Assembly (NCBI GenBank): GCA_947172415.1
Contig: OX359201.1
Coordinates: 2,914,001 to 2,978,000 of the forward strand
Direction: 5' to 3'
Origin: Chondrosia reniformis
Lineage: Eukaryota; Porifera; Demospongiae; Chondrillida; Chondrillidae
DNA length: 64,000 bases
In this document: positions 20,134 through 40,700 of the stretch, piece by piece
Numbering within the stretch: position 1 is the first letter of the stretch
How the letters are laid out: each line of letters opens with the position of its first letter
Translations under genes and position numbers: made by a program
The notes under the pieces: generated by a model
The model's database searches: none
What the model was told of the DNA's origin: nothing
What the model saw: the letters and a program-made list of their open reading frames with translations, nothing else

Positions 20134-22536
20134 AACTACTACATACAACTTCTAAATACAACTAGTACCTACAACTAGTAAATATAAGTAGGACTAGTAC
20201 ATAAAACTAGAGCATACAACTAGTACATACAATTAGTTCATACAACTAGTACATGCAACTAGTACATACAACTAGTACATACCAAAGAGTACACACAACC
20301 AGTACATACAATTAATACTAGTCCATACAATTAGGACAAACAACTAGGACATATAACTAGTACATACACCAACTACATATAACTAGTAAATACACATATA
20401 CCTTATAATTATAAATAGTACACACAATTAGTACATACAGCTAGTGATTACAACTAGTACCTATAACTAGTACACCAACATATAGCTAGTACATACACAT
20501 AAAACTGGTACTTATAAAGAGTACATACACATAGTACATACAACTACTTCACAAAACTAGTACATACAACTAGTACATACAACTAGAGACTACTATATAC
20601 AACTAGCTCACAGAACAAGTACATAATACTAGAACGTACAACTTGTATATTCAACTAGTACATAGCTACTACATACAACTAGGAAAAACAACTAGGACAT
20701 ATGACTAATACATACACCTACTGCATATAACTGGTACATACACATTTACCAAGTAATTATGAATAGTACAAACAACTAGTACATACAACTAGTTCATAAA
20801 ACTAGTACATACAACTAGAACATACAACTAGTACCTTCCTAGCACCTAGTATAACTAGGACAAGAACCTACCACTAGTACACACAACTAATAGATACAAC
20901 TAGAACATACAACCAGTACATAGCTAGTACATACAACTAGTATATACATACAACTTGTACCTACAACTAGTACCTACAAATAGTTAATATAGATAGTACT
21001 AAACCATACAACTAGTACATACAACTAGTACTTGCCACTAGTACATATGACTAGTACACACATCTAAAACCTATACCTAATACATAAAAATATAACAGGC
21101 AACTAGAAACTGGTACATACAACTAATATATACATAAAACTAGCACATTTAACTAGTACATACAAATAGTATATACATACAACTAGTACAACTAGTATAT
21201 ACAAGTAGGTCGTACAACTAGTTCATACAAGGAGTAACTAGTACATATAACTAGTACATGCAACTAGTACATACTACTGATACATACAACTAGTTCATAC
21301 AACTAGTACATACAACTATTTCATACAACTAGTAACTAGTACATACAACTAGTACATACATACAAATAGCACATACAATTAGTACATACAACTAGTGCAT
21401 ACAACTAGTACATAAAGGTAGTTCAATCAACTAGGACATATAACTGGTGCACACACCTACTACATATAACTAGTACCTACCCATAATCCTAGTTCGTATA
21501 AATAGTACATACAACTAGTATATACAGCGAGTGCATACAGTTAGTACATATAACTAATACATACAACTAGTACATATATCTATAGCACAATCATATAACT
21601 AGTCCATATAAATAGTACATACAACTAGTGCAAACCACTAGTACATACAACTAGCATATACCCACAACTACTACATTAAACTAGTACATATAACTAGTAC
21701 ATATAATTAGCACATATAACTAGTACATATGACTAGTGCATATAAATAGTACATACAAGTAGGAAGAACAAACTACAAGTACACACAACTAGTAAAACAA
21801 CCACAGTATATACAACTAGTTCATAAAACTAGTCCATAAAACTAGTTCGTACAACTAGTTCATACAACTAGTAACTAGTACATATAACTAGTACATGCAA
21901 CTAGTACATACAACTGGTACATTCAACTAGTACATTCAACTATGACAAACAACTAGGACATATAATTAGTACATACACCAACTACATATAACTAGTAAAT
22001 ACACATATACCTTGTAATTATAAAAGGTACATACAACTAGAACATACAACTGGTTTACAAACATATAACTACTACATTTAACTGATACTTATAAATAGTA
22101 AATACACATAGTATATACAAATAGTAGATACTACTAGTGCATACAACTGCTACACACAACTAGTACCTACAACTAGTAAATATAACTAGAACTAGTTCAT
22201 AAAACTGGTGCATACAACTAGTACATGCGATTAGTACATACAACTAGTACATCCTCACCGTACAGACAAATTGTACATACAACTAATACATACAACTAGT
22301 ACATTCAATTAGAACATACAACTAGTACAAACAAATAGGACATATAACTAGTACATACACCTACTATATATAACTAGTACATACACATATACCTAGTAAT
22401 TATAAATAGCACATAAAACTAGTATCCAGTACATACAACTAGTACCTTCCTAGAACCTAGTATAACTAGTACAAGAACCTACAATTAGTACACACAACTA
22501 TTACATACAACTAGAACATACAACTAGTACATAGTT
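20134..22536 (-). repeat. 13-bp minisatellite array, reverse orientation
   Basis: Reverse-oriented satellite between LINE-R copy 1 and PLE1. Its last 10 bp (22527-22536) resemble the right flank of PLE1. No gene. Confidence 0.94.
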
Positions 22537-22594
22537 GAAGGAATAAGGATTTCTTCTAACTGCATCGAACTTATCTTTGTAAGGTTCATTTTTC

Positions 22595-22674
22595 GACTTT
22601 GGGAGTGTCTAGAGACGCAGTTTTTTCTGACTCTTCTTTCTCCCAAACGTTTCTACCCTGGGGGTCTTCTTCAG
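22595..22674 (-). ncRNA. Hammerhead-like RNA element, PLE1 left end
   Basis: Minus-strand CTGAAGA, stem and GAAA (22650-22674), followed by the distal GTC at 22597-22595. Relative to the right end, the last stem base is changed (GGGTA for GGGTC) and the inner hairpin is interrupted, so this copy is probably inactive. Confidence 0.4.
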
Positions 22675-22797
22675 TGACTGATGTTGGTCTTCAAGGTGTC
22701 TTCATTTATAGGCATCTTTACCCGCCATTTTCGATTACCTCATCAGTGATGTCATCGGTTACATCATTTCCGGGGAAAGGAGAGATGAAGGGAGTAT

Positions 22798-23304
22798 TCA
22801 TAAAAATGGTTTCCAACCACTTCTTAGTACAATTCCTTGATCTAAGTTCATTCTCACCTGACATTGTTGGATCTTCAGGGCTTCTTTAATCCTTCTTCTG
22901 TACCAGTTCTCTTCCCTCTCCACCACTCTGGCTTGGTTCCACTCAATTGGAAGGCCAGTTTTTAGGGCGTGAACAGCTAAGCCATTGTTCACATACCCCA
23001 TCCTGACAGAACGTTTGTGCTCCACCATCCTGACTTTCAATGTTCTTCCTGTTTCTCCAGTGGACACTACAGGGAAACTAGAAAAGGGGATCTGGTAAAC
23101 GACACCTTTAATATCCATGGTAGGCTGTGGTTGTTTAGGCCTAGAGAGGATACTCCTCAGTGATCTCTGCTTTGTGAAGATGGTTTCAAGGTTCATCTTC
23201 CGGCATGTTCTGGAGATCATTTCACTGAGGCCTTTCACATATGGAATAGAACGTTTTCGTTTACCATCTACCCTACTTCCCTGGCTCCGTTGTCTCTTCT
23301 TCAT
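22798..23304 (-). pseudogene. GIY-YIG endonuclease fragment in PLE1, left arm
   Basis: A 168-codon minus-strand frame starting MKKRQRSQGS and ending WKPFL. It covers the PLE linker (YVKGLSEMISRTCRKM) and the GIY-YIG domain (GVVYQIP, TGETGRTLKVR). The YIG tyrosine is replaced: STG stands where PLE2 has YIG. The same substitution is in the right arm. It has no RT and is non-functional. Confidence 0.85.
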
Positions 23305-23342
23305 GTGCCTAGCAGCAACCTTACTGGGGTATCCGTTGGCCT

Positions 23343-24585
23343 TGTGAAGAAAATTAGGGGATTACACGTAGAGAATGAAGATAAGTTAATCAGCTTTGAT
23401 GTGAAGAGCTTGTTTACAAAGGTACCTATAGATCTCTCCTTGCAGATCATTGATAGGAGGCTGAGGGAAGACAACACCCTATCACACCGGACCACTCTGG
23501 ACCCTCCCACCATCACAACACTCACGGAACTCTGTCTTAGGAAAACGTACTTCCAGTACAGTAGCGAGTTCTTTGAGCAGAAGGATGGGGCAGCCATGGG
23601 CTTTCCTCTCCTTCCAGTGGTGGCAAATATCTTCATGGAAGAGTTTGAAAATGAAGACCTCCAGAAGGCTGGCTCCAAACCTAGGCTCTGGCTAGGTTAT
23701 GTAGACGAAACCTTTGTCCTCTGGAGCCAAGGTAGGGGTCAGCTGGAGAATTTCTGTCTCTCCTTAATGGAAGACATAGAAACATCCAGTACAACATGAA
23801 GGAGGAGACCGATAGATCTATCCCGTTCCTTGACGTGCTAGTGAAGAAGAACAAAGGAAGTTTTAGTACATCTGTGTACAGAAAACCAACCCACACGTAT
23901 AGATACCTTAACTTCTCATCTCATCTCCTACCTAGGATGAAAGCTGGCATTGCCCTCTGCCTCAGGGCAGAGTGGAGACGATCTGTAGTGCTGATCCAGT
24001 GTCCTCCAAGAGGAAGAAGAGCACCTGAAAGGAGTACTCCAGGCCAACGGATATTCCAGTAAGGTCGCTGCTAGGCACATGAAGAAGAGACAACAGAGCC
24101 AGGGAAGTAGGGTGGATGGTAAACGAAAACTTTCTATTCCATATGTGAAAAGCCTCAGTGAAATGATCTCCAGAACATGCCGGAAGATGAACCTTGAAAC
24201 CATCTTCACAAAGCAGAGATCACTGAGGAGTATCCTCTCTAGGCCTAAACAACCACAGCCTACCATGGATATTAAAGGTTTCGTTTACCAGATCCCCTGT
24301 TCTAGTTTCCCTGTAGTGTCCACTGGAGAAACAGGAAGAACATTGAAAGTCAGGATGGTGGAGCACAAACGTTCTGTCAGGATGGGGTATGTGAACAATG
24401 GCTTAGCTGTTCACGCCCTAAAAACTGGCCTTCCAATTGAGTGGAACCAAGCCAGAGTGGTGGAGAGGGAAGAGAACTGGTACAGAAGAAGGATTAAAGA
24501 AGCCCTGAAGATCCAACAATGTCAGGTGAGAATGAACTTAGATCAAGGAATTGTACTAAGAAGTGGTTGGAAACCATTTTTATGA
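23343..24585 (+). pseudogene. PLE1 reverse transcriptase and GIY-YIG remnant
   Basis: Homologous to PLE2 from its residue 305 onward. Motif A (FDVKSLFTKVP) and motif B (GAAMGFPLLPVVAN) are recognisable. Motif C reads YVDE instead of YVDD. The frame is open to 23799, shifts, continues as MKEETDRSIPFLDV from 23796, is lost again near 23960, and resumes at 24079 through the GIY-YIG domain to 24585. YIG is mutated to STG. At least two frameshifts plus two active-site changes make it inactive. It is 5'-truncated at the inverted junction near 23342. Confidence 0.85.
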
Positions 24586-24672
24586 ATACTCCCTTCATCT
24601 CTCCTTTCCCCGGAAATGATGTAATCGATGACATCACTGATGAGGTAATCGAAAATGGCGGGTAAAGATGCC

Positions 24673-24679
24673 TATAAAT
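24673..24679 (+). promoter_or_regulatory. TATA-like box in the PLE1 end
   Basis: tataaat about 36 bp upstream of the hammerhead-like core, at the position equivalent to the PLE2 TATA palindrome. Promoter function is inferred from position only. Confidence 0.3.
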
Positions 24680-24708
24680 GAAGACACCTTGAAGACCAAC
24701 ATCAGTCA

Positions 24709-24788
24709 CTGAAGAAGACCCCCAGGGTCGAAACGTTTGGGAGAAAGAAGAGTCGGAAAAAACTGCGTCTCTAGACGCTCCCAAAGTC
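24709..24788 (+). ncRNA. Hammerhead-like RNA element, PLE1 right end
   Basis: CTGAAGA (24709-24715), an extra A, stem GACCC/GGGTC around CCA, then GAAA (24730-24733). Downstream TTTGGGAG pairs with CTCCCAAA just before GTC (24786-24788), giving the A-U and C-G pairs expected next to a hammerhead cleavage triplet. Inside that loop is a hairpin GCGTCT/AGACGC (24765-24778). Helix I next to the core is weak. Activity is unproven. Confidence 0.5.
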
Positions 24789-24812
24789 GAAAAATGAACC
24801 TTTACAAAGATA

Positions 24813-31437: not shown

Positions 31438-33064
31438 TATATAAGTACTAGCTGTATGTACTAGTAGTATGGACTAGTTATATATACTAGTTGTTTGTAC
31501 TAGTTTTATATACTCGATACTTGTTGTATGTACTAATTGTAAGTACTAGTTGTAGGTTCTAGTACTACTTGTATTAGGTGCTAAATAGGTTCTAGTTGTA
31601 TGTACTAGTTCAATGTTCTAGTTGTATGTTCTAGTTTGTGTTCTAGTTGTATATGCTATTTATATGTACTAGTTAGCTGCGTATGGACTAGTTTTATGTA
31701 GTAGTTGTGTGTACTAGTTATATGTGTATGTAATAAGAATGTGAACTAGTTGTATGTACTAGTTGTGTGTACTAGTTATATGTACTAGTTGTATGTACTA
31801 GTTGTGTGAACTAGTTGTGTGTACTAGTTATATGTTCTAGTTGTATATACTAGTTGTATATTCTAGGTTGTAGCACTAGTTTTATGTAATAGTTGTATGT
31901 ACTAGATGTATGTACTAATTGTAAGTACTAGTTCTATGTACTAGTTGTATGAAGTAGTTGTATGTACTAGTAACTCATTGTATGGTCTAGTTGTATGTAC
32001 TAGTTGTATGTACTAATTGGAAATAATAGTTCTATAAACTAGCTGAATGTACTAGTTGTATATACCAGTTGTATGTCCTGGTTGTATGTACTAGTAACTA
32101 GTTGTAGGGTCTAGTTGTGTGTATAAGCTGTGTGTACCAGTTGTATGCACTAGTTTTATGTACTGGTACTAGTTATATTTACTAGTTGTAAGAAATAGTT
32201 GTATGTACTAGTTGTTTGTACTATTTATACACACCAGTTGTATGTACTAGTTATATATACTAGGTTTATGTACTAGGTACATATACTAGTTATATATACT
32301 AGTTATGTACTTCCTGTATGTACTAGTTGTATGTAAAATTTTTTGTACTAGTTGTATGTACTAGTTGTATGTACTAGTTGTATGTTCTATTTATATGGAC
32401 TAGTTTTGTGTAGTAGTTGGATGAACTAGTAATATGTACTGGTTGTGTGTAATAATTGTATGTACTAGTATTATGTACTAGTTGTATGTACTAGTTGTAT
32501 GTACTAGTTGTAAATACTAGTCGTATGTACTAGTTGTTAGTAACAGTTATATGTACAAGTTGTATGAAGTCGTTGTATGTACTATTTGGATGAACTTGTA
32601 TGTACTCAATGCTAGTTTTATGTACTAGTTGGATGAACTTGTATGTACTCAATGCTAGTTTTATGCACTAGTTGTACGTACTAATTATTTATACTATAGT
32701 TGTGTGAACTAGTTGTGTGGACTAGTTATATGTACTAGTTGTATATACTAGTTTTATATACTAGTTGTGGCACTAGTTTTATGTAATAGTTGTATGTACT
32801 AGATGTATGTACTATTTGTAAGACTAGATTTATGTACTAGTTGTAAGTAGTAGATGTATTTACTAGGTGGAAGTAATCGTTCTATGTACTAGTTTTATGA
32901 AGTAGTTGCATATACTAGTTTTAGGTACAAGTTGTATATATTTGTAGCTAGTTGTATGTACTGGTTGTATGTACTCGTAGCTAGTTGTATGTACTAGTTG
33001 TATGTACTACTTATATGTACTAGTACTGGTTTTATTTACTAGTTGTAGGTACTAGTTGTAGGTA
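31438..33064 (+). repeat. 13-bp minisatellite array, forward orientation
   Basis: Forward satellite from LINE-R copy 2 to PLE2. Positions 32714-33063 are a close copy of 38748-39093, that is, a higher-order repeat unit. The last 10 bp (33055-33064, GTTGTAGGTA) are the left PLE2 target duplication. Confidence 0.94.
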
Positions 33065-33122
33065 ATAGAATGAGGATTCCTTATAACTGCGTCGAACTTA
33101 TCTTTGGGATGGTACATCCTTC

Positions 33123-33200
33123 GACTTTTGAGCGTTTAAAAACGCAGTTGGTTTCTTTCAATTCTTGGTCAAACGTTTCGACCCTGGGGGTCTTCCTCAG
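33123..33200 (-). ncRNA. Hammerhead-like RNA element, PLE2 inverted end
   Basis: Minus-strand copy of the element at 35055-35132, with intact core and stem sequence. It ends 25 bp inside the 34-bp extension. Confidence 0.5.
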
Positions 33201-33233
33201 TGACTGATGGTTGAGTGGAAGAATTGCCTCTAT

Positions 33234-34327
33234 TTATAGAGGATTTTTCCCGCCATTTCCACTTCCTGTCATGTGACCCTCAGCAGAATGAGAAAAACAG
33301 GAAGTATGAATATTAAATCGTCTCCAGGCTTGATGTAACACAATGCCTTGATCTAAATTCATTCTCACCTGACTCTTCTGGATCCTGATGGCTTCTTTGA
33401 CCCTTCTCCTTTGCCAGTGGGTTTCCCTGTCTGTAATCTGGGCCTTGTCCCAAGCAATTGAGTGGCCAGTCTTGAGGGAGTGAACAGCTATACCGTTGTT
33501 CACATCCCCCATCCTGACTGCTCGCTTGTGTTCTGCCAATCTCACTTTCAGGGTCCTTCCAGTTTCACCAATGTAGACTGCAGAACACTCAGAGCAAGGA
33601 ATTAGGTAAACTACACCCTTGATATCCATAGGTGGTTGTCGCTGTTTTGGGTTGGATAAAACGGTTCTCAGTGATCTCTGCTTGGAGAAAATGGTCTGGA
33701 TACCCATTTTTCTACAGCTTTTATCGATCATCTCACTGAGTCCCTTTATATATGGAATAAAGAGTTTGTGTTTACACTCATCCTCACTCCCCTTAGTCTG
33801 CCTTCTCCTGTTGAGCAGTCTATGAGCCTCCCATTTAGGGTATCCATTAGCTTGAAGTACTCCTTCCAGGTGCTCCTTTTCTTTTTCCAAGCTACTGGAG
33901 TTTGGTCCACAAATCTTTTCGGCTCTGTCTTTGAGACACAGTGCGATACCAGTTTTTACCCTAGGGTGGTGATGAGAGGTAAAGTGAAGGTACCTGTCTG
34001 TGTGTGTTGGTTTCCTATACACAAATGTGTCCAAACTTCCCATGCACTTCTTTACTTGCACATCCAGGAAGGGTAAGGAACCATTGGTCTCCTTCTCCAT
34101 GGTAAATTCGATGTTGCGATGTCTTCCATTGAGGAAACTCAAGAAGTCCTCCAGCTGCTCGTCACCATAATTCCAGATGACAAATGTGTCAGCCACATAT
34201 CTCAACCACAACTTAGGCCTTATCACAGCAGCACGAAGAGCTTCTGTTTCGAATTCCTCCATGAAGACGTTCGCTACCACCGGGGAGAGAGGAGATCCCA
34301 TGGCTGCCCCTTCCTTCTGCTCAAAGA
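33234..34327 (-). pseudogene. PLE2 inverted copy: partial RT plus GIY-YIG
   Basis: The frame is open from the inversion junction to the stop at 33234. It starts within RT motif B (FEQKEGAAMGSPLSPVVAN) and runs through the linker to an intact GIY-YIG domain (GVVYLIP, YIGETGRTLKVR). Motif C is YVAD instead of YVDD, which should abolish polymerase activity. The open frame continues upstream to 34487, but those residues are antisense of the neighbouring copy. Confidence 0.88.
34320..34327. other. Inversion junction with 8-nt microhomology
   Basis: ctcaaaga is shared by both parents of the junction. In the full copy the same word occurs at both parental positions: in tctcaaagacagag on the plus strand (about 36913) and in gctcaaagaactc on the minus strand (about 36525). 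Confidence 0.8.
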
Positions 34328-35021
34328 CAGAGCCGAAAAGATTTGTGGACCAAACTCCAGTAGCTTGGAAAAAGAAAAGGAGCACCTGGAAGGAGTACTT
34401 CAAGCTAATGGATACCCTAAATGGGAGGCTCACAGACTGCTCAACAGGAGAAGGCAGACTAAGGGGAGTGAGGATGAGTGTAAACACAAACTCTTTATTC
34501 CATATATAAAGGGACTCAGTGAGATGATCGATAAAAGCTGTAGAAAAATGGGTATCCAGACCATTTTCTCCAAGCAGAGATCACTGAGAACCGTTTTATC
34601 CAACCCAAAACAGCCACAACCACCTATGGATATCAAGGGTGTAGTTTACCTAATTCCTTGCTCTGAGTGTTCTGCAGTCTACATTGGTGAAACTGGAAGG
34701 ACCCTGAAAGTGAGATTGGCAGAACACAAGCGAGCAGTCAGGATGGGGGATGTGAACAACGGTATAGCTGTTCACTCCCTCAAGACTGGCCACTCAATTG
34801 CTTGGGACAAGGCCCAGATTACAGACAGGGAAACCCACTGGCAAAGGAGAAGGGTCAAAGAAGCCATCAGGATCCAGAAGAGTCAGGTGAGAATGAATTT
34901 AGATCAAGGCATTGTGTTACATCAAGCCTGGAGACGATTTAATATTCATACTTCCTGTTTTTCTCATTCTGCTGAGGGTCACATGACAGGAAGTGGAAAT
35001 GGCGGGAAAAATCCTCTATAA
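34324..35021 (+). pseudogene. PLE2 direct 5'-truncated copy: linker plus GIY-YIG
   Basis: It starts at CLKDRAEKICG (full-copy residue 510) and is open to 35021 with the whole linker and GIY-YIG domain. It is nearly identical to the full copy (KQPQPP for KQRQPP, NIHTSC for NINSSC). It lies upstream of the full copy in the same direction, as in tandem Penelope insertions, where such a copy supplies the promoter-bearing pLTR. The open frame extends upstream to 34119 only as antisense of the inverted copy. Confidence 0.87.
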
Positions 35022-35028
35022 ATAGAGG
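35013..35028 (+). promoter_or_regulatory. TATA palindrome upstream of the full PLE2 copy
   Basis: cctctataaatagagg, a perfect 16-bp palindrome around a TATA box, 110 bp before the first ATG of the full copy. The same sequence is at 37607-37622. Promoter role is inferred from position. Confidence 0.4.
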
Positions 35029-35054
35029 CAATTCTTCCACTCAACCATCAGTCA

Positions 35055-35132
35055 CTGAGGAAGACCCCCAGGGTCGAAACGTTTGACCAAGAATTGAAAG
35101 AAACCAACTGCGTTTTTAAACGCTCAAAAGTC
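35055..35132 (+). ncRNA. Hammerhead-like RNA element, PLE2 internal pLTR
   Basis: CTGAGGA (35055-35061), an extra A, stem GACCC/GGGTC around CCA, GAAA (35076-35079), then TTTGA pairing with TCAAA ahead of GTC (35130-35132). Hairpin GCGTTT/AAACGC lies at 35110-35123. Compared with PLE1, both the outer stem and the hairpin change on both strands together. Helix I beside the core is weak (CATC with GATG only at a distance). Confidence 0.5.
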
Positions 35133-35137
35133 GAAGG

Positions 35138-35329
35138 ATGTACCATCCCAAAGATAAGTTTGACGCAGTTATAAGGAATCCTCATTCTATTATCGATTGC
35201 TCAGAGCGAGCTACTATTTCATTATGCTACCAGCTTAGAAACATCAAGGAACGTATTGCCCGTCATCGCAACCATCTTGTTTTCTTTCTCAGATGTAGGG
35301 ACAAGAAGATTGTACCTAAGGGACTATGA
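35138..35329 (+). CDS. PLE2 polyprotein, N-terminal part before an in-frame stop
   Basis: 63 codons from ATG 35138 to TGA 35327-35329. It is in the same frame as the main open frame at 35384. It includes IKERIARHRNHLVFFLRC and KIVPKGL, which look like the N-terminal region of PLE proteins, and the residues after the stop (VQFQITTEKAKRLAF) continue naturally. The TGA is therefore likely a single nonsense change, or part of a region removed or read through. The ATG sits in the pLTR tail and its codons cross the 34-bp extension, which is unusual. Confidence 0.6.
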   Translation: MYHPKDKFDAVIRNPHSIIDCSERATISLCYQLRNIKERIARHRNHLVFFLRCRDKKIVPKGL

Positions 35330-35383
35330 GTTCAGTTTCAGATCACTACGGAAAAGGCCAAACGGCTCGCGTTTCGCACATCA

Positions 35384-37615
35384 ATGGCCTTAGTACGTGA
35401 ACGTATCGGTGCCACCCGCTGGACTCTCCATCGCTCTAGAACTTATTTAGCATCCTGTGAGGAGTCCTTAAAGATGTTAGTCAATGATGAAACCTTCTAT
35501 AAATTAGAAGAATGGAGCGACAGTATAGCTGAAAGGACCTTCCATGAGACTAAAAAGAGACAGAGGGAGAAGTTCCAGGCCCTGTTGGAAAAAACATCCA
35601 GGAAAGATAAGTTCACACCTATTGACATTAAGAAGGTGGTTGTCAATCTTAGCAAAAAAGAATTGACAACTCATCAGACAAATGTCTTATCTCTAGGACT
35701 AAACTTTATACCTACTCCATCTTCACTTCCACAGGAGGACATCATCACTGGAACTGAGACTCTGGCCCGAACCCTTCCAGGAACACTCGGTGAGAAACTC
35801 AGAAGTGAGGTACAACACTGCCTAGCCAAAGCTGAGGCCCCATGCTCCAACCTGACCAAAAGTCAGCAAGTAGCAATCAAGGAGCTTAGGTCTGATCCTG
35901 AAACCATCATTCTTCCAGCGGATAAAGGGAATGCCACTGTCCTTATGGATAGGAAAGACTATGACCAGAAGATAAGGGCACTCTTGGATGATACGAGTTA
36001 TCAAGCCATTAAGAGAAACCCCACAATGAAGATAGAACGGAAGGTAACTGAAGTTCTAAGGTCACTTGAGAAAAAAGGCAAACTCCCCTCTGATCTGAGG
36101 AAGAAGGTTCAGAACCAAAACAGCTCCACACCTCAGCTCTACGGATTACCAAAAATCCACAAGGCAAGTGTACCCTTGAGACCAATTGTTTCCTCCATTA
36201 ATTCCCCTACCTACAACCTTTCCAGGTACCTGGCAGGGGTATTGTCACCACTATGGGGGAAAACTTCTCACTTTGTGCGAAATTCTCATGACTTTGTCAA
36301 GAAGATCAGGGGAATGGATGTGAACACCGAAGATAAGTTGATCAGTTTCGATGTAAAGAGCCTATTTACCAAAGTACCCATTGATCTATCTCTACAGATC
36401 ATCAGGAGACGACTTGCGCAGGACCCTAACTTGGAGCAACGGACACCCTTGGATGTATCCACCATTGCGGATCTTACAGAACTCTGTCTCAGGACAACGT
36501 ACTTCCTGTACAGTGATGAGTTCTTTGAGCAGAAGGAAGGGGCAGCCATGGGATCTCCTCTCTCCCCGGTGGTAGCGAACATCTTCATGGAGGAATTCGA
36601 AACAGAAGCTCTTCGTGCTGCTGTGATAAGGCCTAAGTTGTGGTTGAGATATGTGGATGACACATTTGTCATCTGGAATTATGGTGACGAGCAGCTGGAG
36701 GACTTCTTGAGTTTCCTCAATGGAAGACATCGCAACATCGAATTTACCATGGAGAAGGAGACCAATGGTTCCTTACCCTTCCTGGATGTGCAAGTAAAGA
36801 AGTGCATGGGAAGTTTGGACACATTTGTGTATAGGAAACCAACACACACAGACAGATACCTTCACTTTACCTCTCATCACCACCCTAGGGTAAAAACTGG
36901 TATCGCACTGTGTCTCAAAGACAGAGCCGAAAAGATTTGTGGACCAAACTCCAGTAGCTTGGAAAAAGAAAAGGAGCACCTGGAAGGAGTACTTCAAGCT
37001 AATGGATACCCTAAATGGGAGGCTCACAGACTGCTCAACAGGAGAAGGCAGACTAAGGGGAGTGAGGATGAGTGTAAACACAAACTCTTTATTCCATATA
37101 TAAAGGGACTCAGTGAGATGATCGATAAAAGCTGTAGAAAAATGGGTATCCAGACCATTTTCTCCAAGCAGAGATCACTGAGAACCGTTTTATCCAACCC
37201 AAAACAGCGACAACCACCTATGGATATCAAGGGTGTAGTTTACCTAATTCCTTGCTCTGAGTGTTCTGCAGTCTACATTGGTGAAACTGGAAGGACCCTG
37301 AAAGTGAGATTGGCAGAACACAAGCGAGCAGTCAGGATGGGGGATGTGAACAACGGTATAGCTGTTCACTCCCTCAAGACTGGCCACTCAATTGCTTGGG
37401 ACAAGGCCCAGATTACAGACAGGGAAACCCACTGGCAAAGGAGAAGGGTCAAAGAAGCCATCAGGATCCAGAAGAGTCAGGTGAGAATGAATTTAGATCA
37501 AGGCATTGTGTTACATCAAGCCTGGAGACGATTTAATATTAATTCTTCCTGTTTTTCTCATTCTGCTGAGGGTCACATGACAGGAAGTGGAAATGGCGGG
37601 AAAAATCCTCTATAA
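35384..37615 (+). CDS. Penelope-like reverse transcriptase with GIY-YIG endonuclease
   Basis: 743 codons. The PLE signature LPADKGNATVLMDR is at 177-190 and LYGLPKIHK at 252-260. RT motif A (FDVKSLFTKVP) is at 322-332, B (GAAMGSPLSPVVAN) at 386-399 and C (YVDD) at 423-426. Then come LPFLDV at 464-469, RKPTHTDRYL at 484-493, a basic linker, and a GIY-YIG nuclease with GVVY 617-620, YIG 631-633, TGRTLKVR 635-642 and a late Glu in RRRVKEA. All catalytic residues are present. It would reverse-transcribe at a nick made by its own nuclease. The start shown is simply the first ATG after an in-frame TGA at 35327, and the ancestral protein probably began further upstream. This is the only RT in the window that could still be active. 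Confidence 0.93.
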   Translation: MALVRERIGATRWTLHRSRTYLASCEESLKMLVNDETFYKLEEWSDSIAERTFHETKKRQREKFQALLEKTSRKDKFTPIDIKKVVVNLSKKELTTHQTNVLSLGLNFIPTPSSLPQEDIITGTETLARTLPGTLGEKLRSEVQHCLAKAEAPCSNLTKSQQVAIKELRSDPETIILPADKGNATVLMDRKDYDQKIRALLDDTSYQAIKRNPTMKIERKVTEVLRSLEKKGKLPSDLRKKVQNQNSSTPQLYGLPKIHKASVPLRPIVSSINSPTYNLSRYLAGVLSPLWGKTSHFVRNSHDFVKKIRGMDVNTEDKLISFDVKSLFTKVPIDLSLQIIRRRLAQDPNLEQRTPLDVSTIADLTELCLRTTYFLYSDEFFEQKEGAAMGSPLSPVVANIFMEEFETEALRAAVIRPKLWLRYVDDTFVIWNYGDEQLEDFLSFLNGRHRNIEFTMEKETNGSLPFLDVQVKKCMGSLDTFVYRKPTHTDRYLHFTSHHHPRVKTGIALCLKDRAEKICGPNSSSLEKEKEHLEGVLQANGYPKWEAHRLLNRRRQTKGSEDECKHKLFIPYIKGLSEMIDKSCRKMGIQTIFSKQRSLRTVLSNPKQRQPPMDIKGVVYLIPCSECSAVYIGETGRTLKVRLAEHKRAVRMGDVNNGIAVHSLKTGHSIAWDKAQITDRETHWQRRRVKEAIRIQKSQVRMNLDQGIVLHQAWRRFNINSSCFSHSAEGHMTGSGNGGKNPL

Positions 37616-37648
37616 ATAGAGGCAATTCTTCCACTCAACCATCAGTCA

Positions 37649-37726
37649 CTGAGGAAGACCCCCAGGGTCGAAACGTTTGACCAAGAATTGAAAGAAACCA
37701 ACTGCGTTTTTAAACGCTCAAAAGTC
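37649..37726 (+). ncRNA. Hammerhead-like RNA element, PLE2 3' end
   Basis: Third copy of the 35055-35132 element in PLE2, with identical core and hairpin, ending 24 bp before the element boundary at 37750. Confidence 0.5.
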
Positions 37727-37750
37727 GAAGGATGTACCATCCCAAAGATA

Positions 37751-40700
37751 GTTGTAGGTACTAGATGTGTGTACTAGTTTTGTACTAGTTGTTTTTGTTA
37801 GTTACTAGTTGTAAGTACTAATTGTTTGTGCTAGTTTTATGTTCTAGTTGAATGTACTAGTTATATGTACTATTTATATGTTCTAGTTATGTGTGTATGT
37901 TCTATGTATTTTTGTTCTAATTGAATGTACTAGTTGTATGTACGTACTAGGTATATGTACTAGATATGTACCAGTTATATTTACAAGTACTATGAACTAA
38001 TTGTATGTAATGGCTATGTACCTGTTATATGTTCTAGTTGTATGTACTAGTTTTATATACCCATTCTATGTACCAGTTCTATGTACTAATTATAGAACTA
38101 ATTGTATGTGCTACTTGTGTGTACTAGTTGTATGTACTAGGTGTTTGTACTGGTTGTATGTGCTAGTACTGGTTGTATTTACTACTTCTAGGTACTCTTT
38201 GTATGTACTAGCTGTATGGACTAGTAATAGTTATATTTACTAGTTGTATGTACTAGTTGTATGCACTAAATGTAGGTTCTAGTACTGGTTTAACTATGTA
38301 ATAGGTAGGTCCTAGTTTTATGTACTAGTTGTATGTACTCGTTCTATGTACTAATTGTATGGACTAGTTGTATGTACTAGGTGTATGAACTAGTTATATG
38401 TAGTAGTTGTGTGTACTAGTTGTATGTACTAATTGTAAGTTTTAGGTGTATGTACTAGTTTTACGTACCAGTTGTATGTACCAGTTTTATGTGGTAGATT
38501 TATGTACACGTTCTGTGAACAAGCTGTGTGTATTAGTTGTATCTAATACTTCTATGAACTAGGTGTGTGTAATTGTTTATGTACAAGCTATATTTACTAG
38601 TTTTAGTTACTAGTTGTATATACTAGTTGTATGTACTAGTAACTAGTTGTTAGTACAAGTTATATGTACTAGTTGTATTTATTATTTGTATGTGCTAGTT
38701 GTATGTTTCAGTTGTATGTACTAGTTGTATGTTCTAATTGTGTGGACTAGTTATATGTACTAGTTGTATATACTAGTTTTATATACTAGTTGTGGCACTA
38801 GTTTTATGTAATAGTTGTATGTACTAGATGTATGTACTATTTGTAAGACTAGATTTATGTACTAGTTGTAAGTAGTAGATGTATTTACTAGTTGGAAGTA
38901 ATCGTTCTATGTACTAGTTTTATGAAGTAGTTGCATATACTAGTTTTAGGTACAAGTTGTATATATTTGTAGCTAGTTGTATGTACTAGTTGTATGTACT
39001 CGTAGCTAGTTGTATGTACTAGTTGTATGTACTAGTTATATGTACTAGTACTGGTTTTATTTACTAGTTGTAGGTACTAGTTGTAGGTACTAGATGTGTG
39101 TACTAGTTTTGTACTAGTTGTTTTTGTTAGTTACTAGTTGTAGGTACTAATTGCTTGTGCTAGTTTTATGTTCTAGTTGAATGTACTAGTTATATGTACT
39201 ATTTATATGTTCTAGTTATGTGTGTATGTTCTATGTATTTTTGTTCTAATTGAATGTACTAGTTGTATGTACATACTAGGTATATGTACTAGATGTGTAC
39301 CAGTTATATTTACAAGTACTATGAACTAATTGTATGTAATGGCTATGTACCTGTTATATGTTCTAGTTGTATGTACTAGTTTTATATACCCATTCTATGT
39401 ACCAGTTCTATGTACTAATTATAGAACTAATTGTATGTGCTACTTGTGTGTACTAGTTGTATGGACAAGGTGTATGTACTAGTTGTATGTACTAAGTGTT
39501 TGTACTAGTTGTATGTGCTAGTACTGGTTGTATTTACTACTTCTAGGTACTCTTTGTATGTACTAGCTGTATGGACTAGTAATAGTTATATTTACTAGTT
39601 GTATGTACTAGTTGTATGCACTAATTGTAGGTTCTAGTACTAGTTTAACTATGTAATAGGTAGGTCCTAGTTTTATGTACTAGTTGTATGTACTCGTTCT
39701 ATGTACTAATTGTATGGACTAGTTGTATGTACTAGTTTTATATACCCATTCTATGTACCAGTTCTATGTACTAATTATAGAACTAATTGTATGTGCTACT
39801 TGTGTGTACTAGTTGTATGGACTAGGTGTATGTACTAATTGTATGTACTAGGTGTTTGTACTAGTTGTATGTGCTAGTACTGGTTGAATTTACTACTTCT
39901 AGGTACTCTTTGTATGTACTAGCTGTATGGACTAGTACTAGTTATATTTACTAGTTGTATGTACTTGTTGTATGCACTAATTGTAGGTTCTAGTACTAGT
40001 TTAACTATGTAATAGGTAGGTCCTAGTTTTATGTACTAGTTGTATGTGCTCGTTCTGTGTACTAATTGTATGGACTAGTTGTATGTACTAGGTGTATGAA
40101 CTAGTTATATGTAGTAGTTGTGTGTACTAGTTGTATGTACTAATTGTAAGTTTTAGGTGTATGTACTAGTTTTACGTACCAGTTGTATGTACCAGTTTTA
40201 TGTGGTAGATTTATGTACACGTTCTGTGAACAAGCTGTGTGTACTAGTTGTATCTAATACTTCTATGAACTAGGTGTGTGTAATTGTTTATGTACAAGCT
40301 ATATTTACTATATAGTTGTAGTTACTAGTTGTATGTACTAGTTGTATGTACAAGTTATATGTACTAGTTGTATTTATTATTTGTATGTGCTAGTTGTATG
40401 TTTCAGTTGTATGTACTAGTTGTATGTTCTAATTGTGTGTACTAGTTATATGTACTATAGAGTTGTATGTACGCGATACTAGTTTGTGTACTAGTTGTTT
40501 GTACAAGTTATATTTAGTAGTTGTTTGTACTAGTTACATGTACTATTTGTATTTACTAGTTGTATGTTCTAATTGTTTGTACTAGTTATATAAAAAGTAT
40601 ATGTACTAGTTGTATGTACTAGTTGTATGTACTAGTAACTAGTTGTATGTACAAGTTATATGTACTAGTTGTATTTATTATTTGTATGTGCTAGTTGTAT

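Follow-up and report, generated by a model that had tools for sequence, protein, structure and literature searches.

The window, by which we mean the whole 64,000-nt stretch analysed (C13:2914001-2978000 of a sponge genome searched over 117,379,552 bases in 15 contigs), consists for the most part of a 13-bp satellite, TAGTTGTATGTAC, arranged in blocks of both orientations. Contig 15 of this genome carries a COX1 with eight in-frame TGA codons that have to be translated and with AGR codons at positions where Arg is expected, a code in keeping with a demosponge mitochondrion. Set into this array is a composite insertion of three closely related parts, whose inverted arm, direct copy and full-length unit are 99.5-99.6% identical to one another (1223/1229 positions, or 6 differences, between inverted arm and full unit; 834/837, or 3 differences, between direct copy and full unit). 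The partial tandem (pLTR) organisation with inverted copies, the 34-bp tail at an outer end (an optional tail of 30-40 bp being typical) and the target-site duplication around the whole insert are all features by which PLEs are recognised (Table 1).

Table 1. Features of the window, by position from its first base.
Feature	Position	Strand	Remarks
Second composite PLE insertion, family 2	22536..24812	.	Inverted arm and tail left, direct no-tail arm right
Left target-site duplication TAGTTGTAGGTA	33053..33064	.	In 7/7 paralogues the empty site is identical to the joined flanks
Whole PLE insertion	33065-37750		Inverted 5'-truncated arm with 34-bp tail, truncated direct copy, full unit
34-bp tail, outer end of inverted arm	33065..33098	-	33063-33098 including shared TA
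Inverted 5'-truncated arm (tail arm)	33099..34327	-	Unit positions 1364-2592
Further hammerhead-like core	33167-33200	-	
8-bp microhomology CTCAAAGA, inverted/direct arm joint	34320..34327	.	From the overlap of the arms
Truncated direct copy, upstream unit of partial tandem	34320..35156	+	Unit positions 1756-2592
Further hammerhead-like core	35055-35088	+	
PLE reading frame	35138..37615	+	ATG at 35138 (by eye); TGA at 35327-35329; 761 codons open to 37612
Full-unit start, stretch shared with tail	35157..35192	+	Template positions 0 to +36
Full-length PLE unit	35159..37750	+	No-tail outer end on the right (position 0)
Putative minimal type I hammerhead-like core	37649..37682	+	CTGAGGA-GACCC/GGGTC-GAAACGTTT; by eye
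14-bp palindrome GCGTTTTTAAACGC	37704..37717	+	Arm-joining hotspot; family 2 equivalent GCGTCTCTAGACGC
Right target-site duplication	37749..37760	.	
Empty-site paralogue, same satellite array	39065..39089	.	Aligned on both sides

Judged from its sequence, the insertion is a canonical EN+ GIY-YIG Penelope-like retrotransposon (PLE). The reading frame of the full unit holds an in-frame TGA; its open part matches RVT_1 at aa 278-476 (40.4 bits against a cut-off of 29.6), as expected of an RT, and GIY-YIG (PF01541) C-terminal to this at aa 634-704, a match that at 22.2 bits falls slightly below the Pfam cut-off of 22.6 and that we accept on its E-value (1.8e-4) and position. Because the ATG sits in the direct copy, position 0 falls after six codons of the frame, and the tail extends the frame by about eleven to twelve more. 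The core close to the right end is one we take to be a minimal type I hammerhead-like motif; an Rfam search for a hammerhead in the PLE gave no match up to E 1, and a similar core is carried by a second family of elements (family 2, below).

A preliminary description of this locus proposed that a 10-bp duplication flanks the whole trio, that a satellite unit at 39060-39100 displays the junction without the element, and that the three-part structure probably arrived as one insertion. The 10-bp repeat, GTTGTAGGTA, is indeed found on both sides (33055-33064 and 37751-37760), but its length needs refining: the maximal flank repeat is 12 bp, including a TA common to the element ends and the target, and 12 bp is also the mode across insertions. 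The host being a 13-bp satellite, a 10-bp match between flanks is weak evidence by itself; what identifies the repeat as a true duplication is a set of seven empty sites that all have one unit less. At the first of these, in the same array, 300-bp flank pieces match on both sides (left 98%, right 99%), with the left flank aligning up to the very junction (query 1-373, 98%). Six more empty paralogues, on C4, C7, C9, C10, C11 and C12, show an uninterrupted junction, and the joined flanks without the element are identical across the junction in 7/7 paralogues (39078 and the six on other chromosomes). A chance flank match within the satellite is thereby ruled out, in conjunction with insertions outside satellite DNA. 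With a single outer duplication, and with 7/7 empty sites lacking every part of the trio, the earlier observation is confirmed: the insertion is one PLE insertion event. The 34-bp extension reported at the left end is likewise present; it recurs with one mismatch at the direct/full junction, where the same report had 34 bp joining the two copies. The stretch is the same, but it is no separate linker, being simply the start of the next unit with its early ORF codons.

The layout of the outer ends was then compared across the genome. The family-1 3'-end query, 27 bases long and ending two bases short of position 0, was matched 613 times in the genome with up to 3 mismatches; for the tail pattern there were 349 matches, and reversed-pattern controls for both gave 0. 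Family 2, which is 75-77% identical to family 1 over its start (six loci), gave 721 3'-end matches. Loci were drawn from the best 100 of 613 (family 1) and 100 of 721 (family 2) 3'-end matches, and outer ends were classified by fuzzy matching, the loci coming mostly from the family-1 3'-end list, plus others. They comprise the first 20 loci of that list (L031-L050), a set made up mostly of its remaining single ends (L071-L106), loci picked as pairs, some of them with a tail already listed (L051-L063, L107-L110), and the first loci of the family-2 list with one full-length cluster skipped (L121-L140); a few pairs of the family-1 list lie outside the sample. Loci showing one end only were left out: 28 in family 1 (5 of them 6-kb windows, 23 of them 520-bp windows), 9/20 in family 2, and 3.5-kb loci with one end. 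Among the 28, two have by eye a short no-tail second end (L042, L045) and one a partial tail at the other end (L044); all three are uncounted. One row (L031) is an insertion present twice in tandem, for which the outermost ends were taken, and six two-ended rows were dropped as their flanks duplicate those of another row.

Every two-ended insertion so compiled carries the tail at exactly one of its outer ends. In family 1, 55/55 insertions with both ends in view have one tail (left 27, right 28, both 0, neither 0; five of the 55 rows were assembled from two loci at the two ends); in family 2, both ends are seen at 11/20 loci, with exactly one tail in 11/11. With duplicates removed, the two families yield 60 independent insertions, 60/60 with one tail (left 32, right 28), such that among these two-ended insertions a tail at both ends and a tail at neither end were each found in 0/60. 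Single-armed insertions of both kinds also occur (by eye, with tail at L043, L104 and L122, without at L088), indicating that each start is usable alone and that the rule belongs to the paired reaction rather than to the sites. The two-start rule looks enforced rather than random.

The longest exact repeat at the outer ends is exactly 12 bp in 31/60 insertions and at least 11 bp in 46/60, whereas among mismatched flank pairs (n=1077) it never exceeds 9; in 7/60 it is 6 bp or less. The suggestion in the preliminary description that other composites be examined for a single flanking duplication, pursued here in part, is upheld by an outer duplication of at least 8 bp in 53/60 independent insertions. 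By an approximate motif count, 39/60 insertions lie outside the satellite and 21/60 have satellite-like flanks. Read in the orientation of the tail, the 12-bp sites follow roughly AAS|WAST-nnnn-WSTW|STT, nearly equal on both strands, and the 21 non-satellite 12-bp sites show a dyad symmetry of r 0.66 against a permuted mean of 0.006, with 0/2000 column permutations as high. A partial resemblance of the satellite to this motif accords with both the site of the present insertion and the satellite-like flanks of 21/60. The tail-oriented base counts, near symmetric, hold nothing obvious by which target sequence would set the side of the tail. Since each outer end corresponds to a 3' end of the RNA facing outward, and since the target has been duplicated, we infer from the geometry that the break would have borne 3' overhangs; taken with the symmetry of the target and the constant stagger, the two outward-facing 3' ends point to a double-strand break with 12-nt 3' overhangs.

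At their inner ends the two arms lie no more than 7 nt apart in 32/42 rows, so that no host DNA intervenes between them there; these 32 form the basis of the junction counts, from which three duplicates, the window insertion and six rows (with 18-321 nt gaps or alignment artefacts) are excluded. The arms overlap by at least 2 nt at 20/32 junctions (the 8-nt joint of the window insertion is outside the 32) and join by microhomology. Arm lengths cluster at 44-49 nt (13/64) and at 98-110 nt (11/64), the latter near the hammerhead-like core at 102 nt, and at 4/32 junctions a 14-nt overlap falls on the palindrome GCGTTTTTAAACGC, which lies 47 nt away from position 0, leaving two 47-nt arms. Arm length does not set the side of the tail, the tail arm being longer in 9/32, shorter in 18/32 and equal in 5/32.

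Sequence variants bear on the origin of the arms. In the genome, the tail pattern in its C variant is matched exactly at only two places, both in the window element; among the matches listed (100 of 349), six one-mismatch places carry the tail C plus another change. The G at 37209 is common to the inverted arm and the full unit, with C in the direct copy and in 31/32 other arm rows (G in 1/32). Across 27 insertions chosen for usable overlap, the arm-to-arm difference is below the between-insertion median in 16, above it in 2 and the same as the median in 9. The rare tail variant, the shared G and the likeness of the arms together suggest that both arms probably stem from a single RNA or source locus; similar arms are also expected of any young insertion derived from one locus, hence this falls short of proving a single molecule. 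Private or rare changes (full unit 3, inverted arm 3) are consistent with a young insertion. Copying of the tandem from a circular RNA is not supported, the direct and full units differing at 3 sites.

We consider it very probable that the whole structure results from a single insertion in which two 12-nt 3' overhangs acted as primers, with starts at 0 and +34, and the two cDNAs joined. In the satellite repeat, the PLE enzyme would cut the two strands with a stagger of 12 bp, and each of the resulting 12-nt 3' overhangs would serve as a primer for the reverse transcription of PLE RNA. The left-hand cDNA would start at template +34, thereby making the tail, and reach back for about 1.26 kb; the right-hand one would start at position 0, pass through the whole unit and continue into the unit upstream of it in a tandem transcript, covering about 3.4 kb. 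The tips of both cDNAs would then anneal over 8 nt and be joined, with fill-in of the overhangs creating the duplication. Counting against this explanation are the duplications of 6 bp or less in 7/60 insertions, the differences between direct and full units at 3/837 sites, the single-armed insertions of both kinds and, in an Anolis PLE studied in vitro, start sites that do not differ between the target strands and some that lack homology to the cut DNA (PMC11167929).

Beyond the joining of two cDNAs, we infer that each start would obligatorily be used once by one RNA-protein complex. How this might be arranged we can propose only tentatively: a symmetric dimer may act on a palindromic break with 12-nt 3' overhangs, engaging two positions of one RNA 34 nt apart. 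Were this so, the tail would be a permanent mark of a second template register, exactly one per two-armed insertion. The dimer sharing one RNA is the reading that we favour, and its main rival, which is possible if rather doubtful, is a fixed order of strands, wherein extension at the first cut invariably starts from +34 and at the second from 0, the RNA having meanwhile changed state (copied, or cleaved at 0). Such an order accounts equally well for one tail per insertion, and a predicted RNA pairing, AACUGCGU/ACGCAGUU, encloses site 0 in one copy of each family, such that the state of the RNA could choose the start; against it, the fold is unremarkable relative to shuffles (z -1.9 and -0.6), and with a near-symmetric target nothing obvious in the DNA marks first from second.

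The four junctions lying exactly at the palindrome, with their two 47-nt arms, recall a different route, in which one cDNA begun at +34 folds back (for instance at the palindrome) and copies itself to generate the inverted arm; self-priming from palindromes at inverted junctions was proposed by the Adineta authors (PMC3846280). A fold-back copy predicts a tail at both ends, which is found in 0/60, and the no-tail arm exceeds the tail arm in 18/32, as it does in the window insertion (3.4 kb vs 1.26 kb), making this route improbable. Two unconnected RNPs, one per break end and each picking its start at random, are a very remote prospect: both starts do occur in single-armed insertions (by eye) and are used by a PLE enzyme in vitro (PMC11167929), but random choice predicts one tail in at most half of insertions, and 60/60 (at most 2^-60) refutes it for both families, provided that the 60 are representative. 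That the three copies accumulated through successive separate insertions or later rearrangement, to which the 3/837 direct-full and 6/1229 inverted-full differences might be ascribed, is scarcely credible given one outer duplication, 7/7 empty sites without any of the parts, and the same two-armed layout in 60 independent insertions.

Returning to the favoured two-start reading, the composite architecture itself is already known in PLEs (Pen2a_Av of Adineta; two-site starts in an Anolis PLE), and what we add is the one-tail rule, counted. Penelope of Drosophila virilis has pLTRs, inverted copies and an optional tail of 30-40 bp, features that, as described, it has in common with the sponge PLE. 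In LINE-1 twin priming, a second primer invades the RNA internally to yield a 5' inversion; the sponge insertions are similar in having two primed cDNAs, an inverted part and a microhomology joint, but differ in that both arms begin in the same 3' template region, 34 nt apart, and both outer ends are 3' ends. Twin priming of the LINE-1 type was rejected on this absence of an internal start.

The closest counterpart in layout, Pen2a_Av of Adineta vaga, comprises inverted pLTR, direct pLTR, ORF and pLTR as one insert with a 9-bp duplication, and a 31-bp tail is described there as optional on one inverted pLTR, which is close to the present rule but gives no count of it (PMC3846280). Its pLTR contains the first 12 ORF codons, or 22 with the tail (PMC3846280). 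The two systems agree in having inverted and direct copies as one insert, a duplication, a tail and early ORF codons in the repeat; we set the 1.2-kb inverted arm here as a difference, and whereas Pen2a_Av is single-copy, the sponge families have hundreds of 3' ends, which makes rule and motif countable. PAc, a Poseidon element of Anolis carolinensis, has RT and GIY-YIG domains and a minimal hammerhead ribozyme; in vitro, it cuts and extends both strands, starting at two neighbouring sites on the borders of the tail (PMC11167929), which speaks for the two-start reading. Its cut preference is ATT, some starts are not homologous to the cut DNA, and the start site is no different between the two target strands, linked ends not being reported (PMC11167929); pairing of starts is thus neither shown nor excluded there. 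The sponge PLE resembles PAc, as described, in RT with GIY-YIG and in two tail-bordering starts, and PAc differs in being an in vitro system with no reported pairing of starts and with its ATT preference.

Earlier work describes the PLE tail as optional and reports it from some of the copies (PMC11167929). Its occurrence exactly once per two-armed insertion (60/60) turns it into a quantitative constraint on the PLE enzyme, combining a symmetric DNA target, asymmetric template use and end joining of two cDNAs. We did not find the one-tail rule stated in any of the titles and abstract openings listed in searches of the literature, and it may have appeared in print earlier; any PLE-rich genome offers a test of it, as does the in vitro system already established, and it guides annotators in defining PLE ends and duplications. 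The window itself supplies a 61st one-tail case, outside the 60: the second composite insertion, of family 2, carries a tail at the left only (by eye), and its flanks have only seven bases in common, TACATAG.

A second composite insertion of a Penelope-like element (PLE), belonging to family 2, lies in the window in the same satellite as the main insertion; its inverted and direct arms are 98% identical across 773 bp, and the tail is present at the left end only. The 659-codon frame is another retroelement, and a Pfam search of the 564-codon frame at E 0.001 returned no match.

Further features of the window
Feature	Position	Strand	Domain
Open frame, 564 codons	4709-6400	-	
Open frame, 659 codons	18159-20135	-	Reverse transcriptase, RVT_1 (73.8 bits)
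Composite PLE insertion, family 2	22536-24812		

Long blocks of the 13-bp satellite TAGTTGTATGTAC occur across positions 1-64000, flipping orientation around 5, 31, 46 and 48 kb. Among the matches listed for a 709-bp stretch, six other chromosomes carry copies of 94-98% identity, and every contig among those matches is represented by one or a few mid-chromosome regions; the satellite regions are possibly centromeric, and satellite copies may possibly be exchanged between chromosomes.

Elsewhere in the genome, four loci (L032, L037, L052 and L054) hold minimal PLE insertions of 116 bp, comprising the tail and two 47-nt arms whose junction falls at the palindrome. An older insertion (L039:600-723), left out of the insertion count, lies next to a counted one; its left end bears a tail that has diverged, and its right end lacks a tail.

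For one copy per PLE family (window 35046-35192 and another genomic locus, L115:46-195), the RNA stretch AACUGCGU, which lies upstream of position 0, is predicted to pair with the tail stretch ACGCAGUU, a pairing that would compete with a local hairpin at the palindrome. Between the two families this hairpin differs by one T-A to C-G double change.
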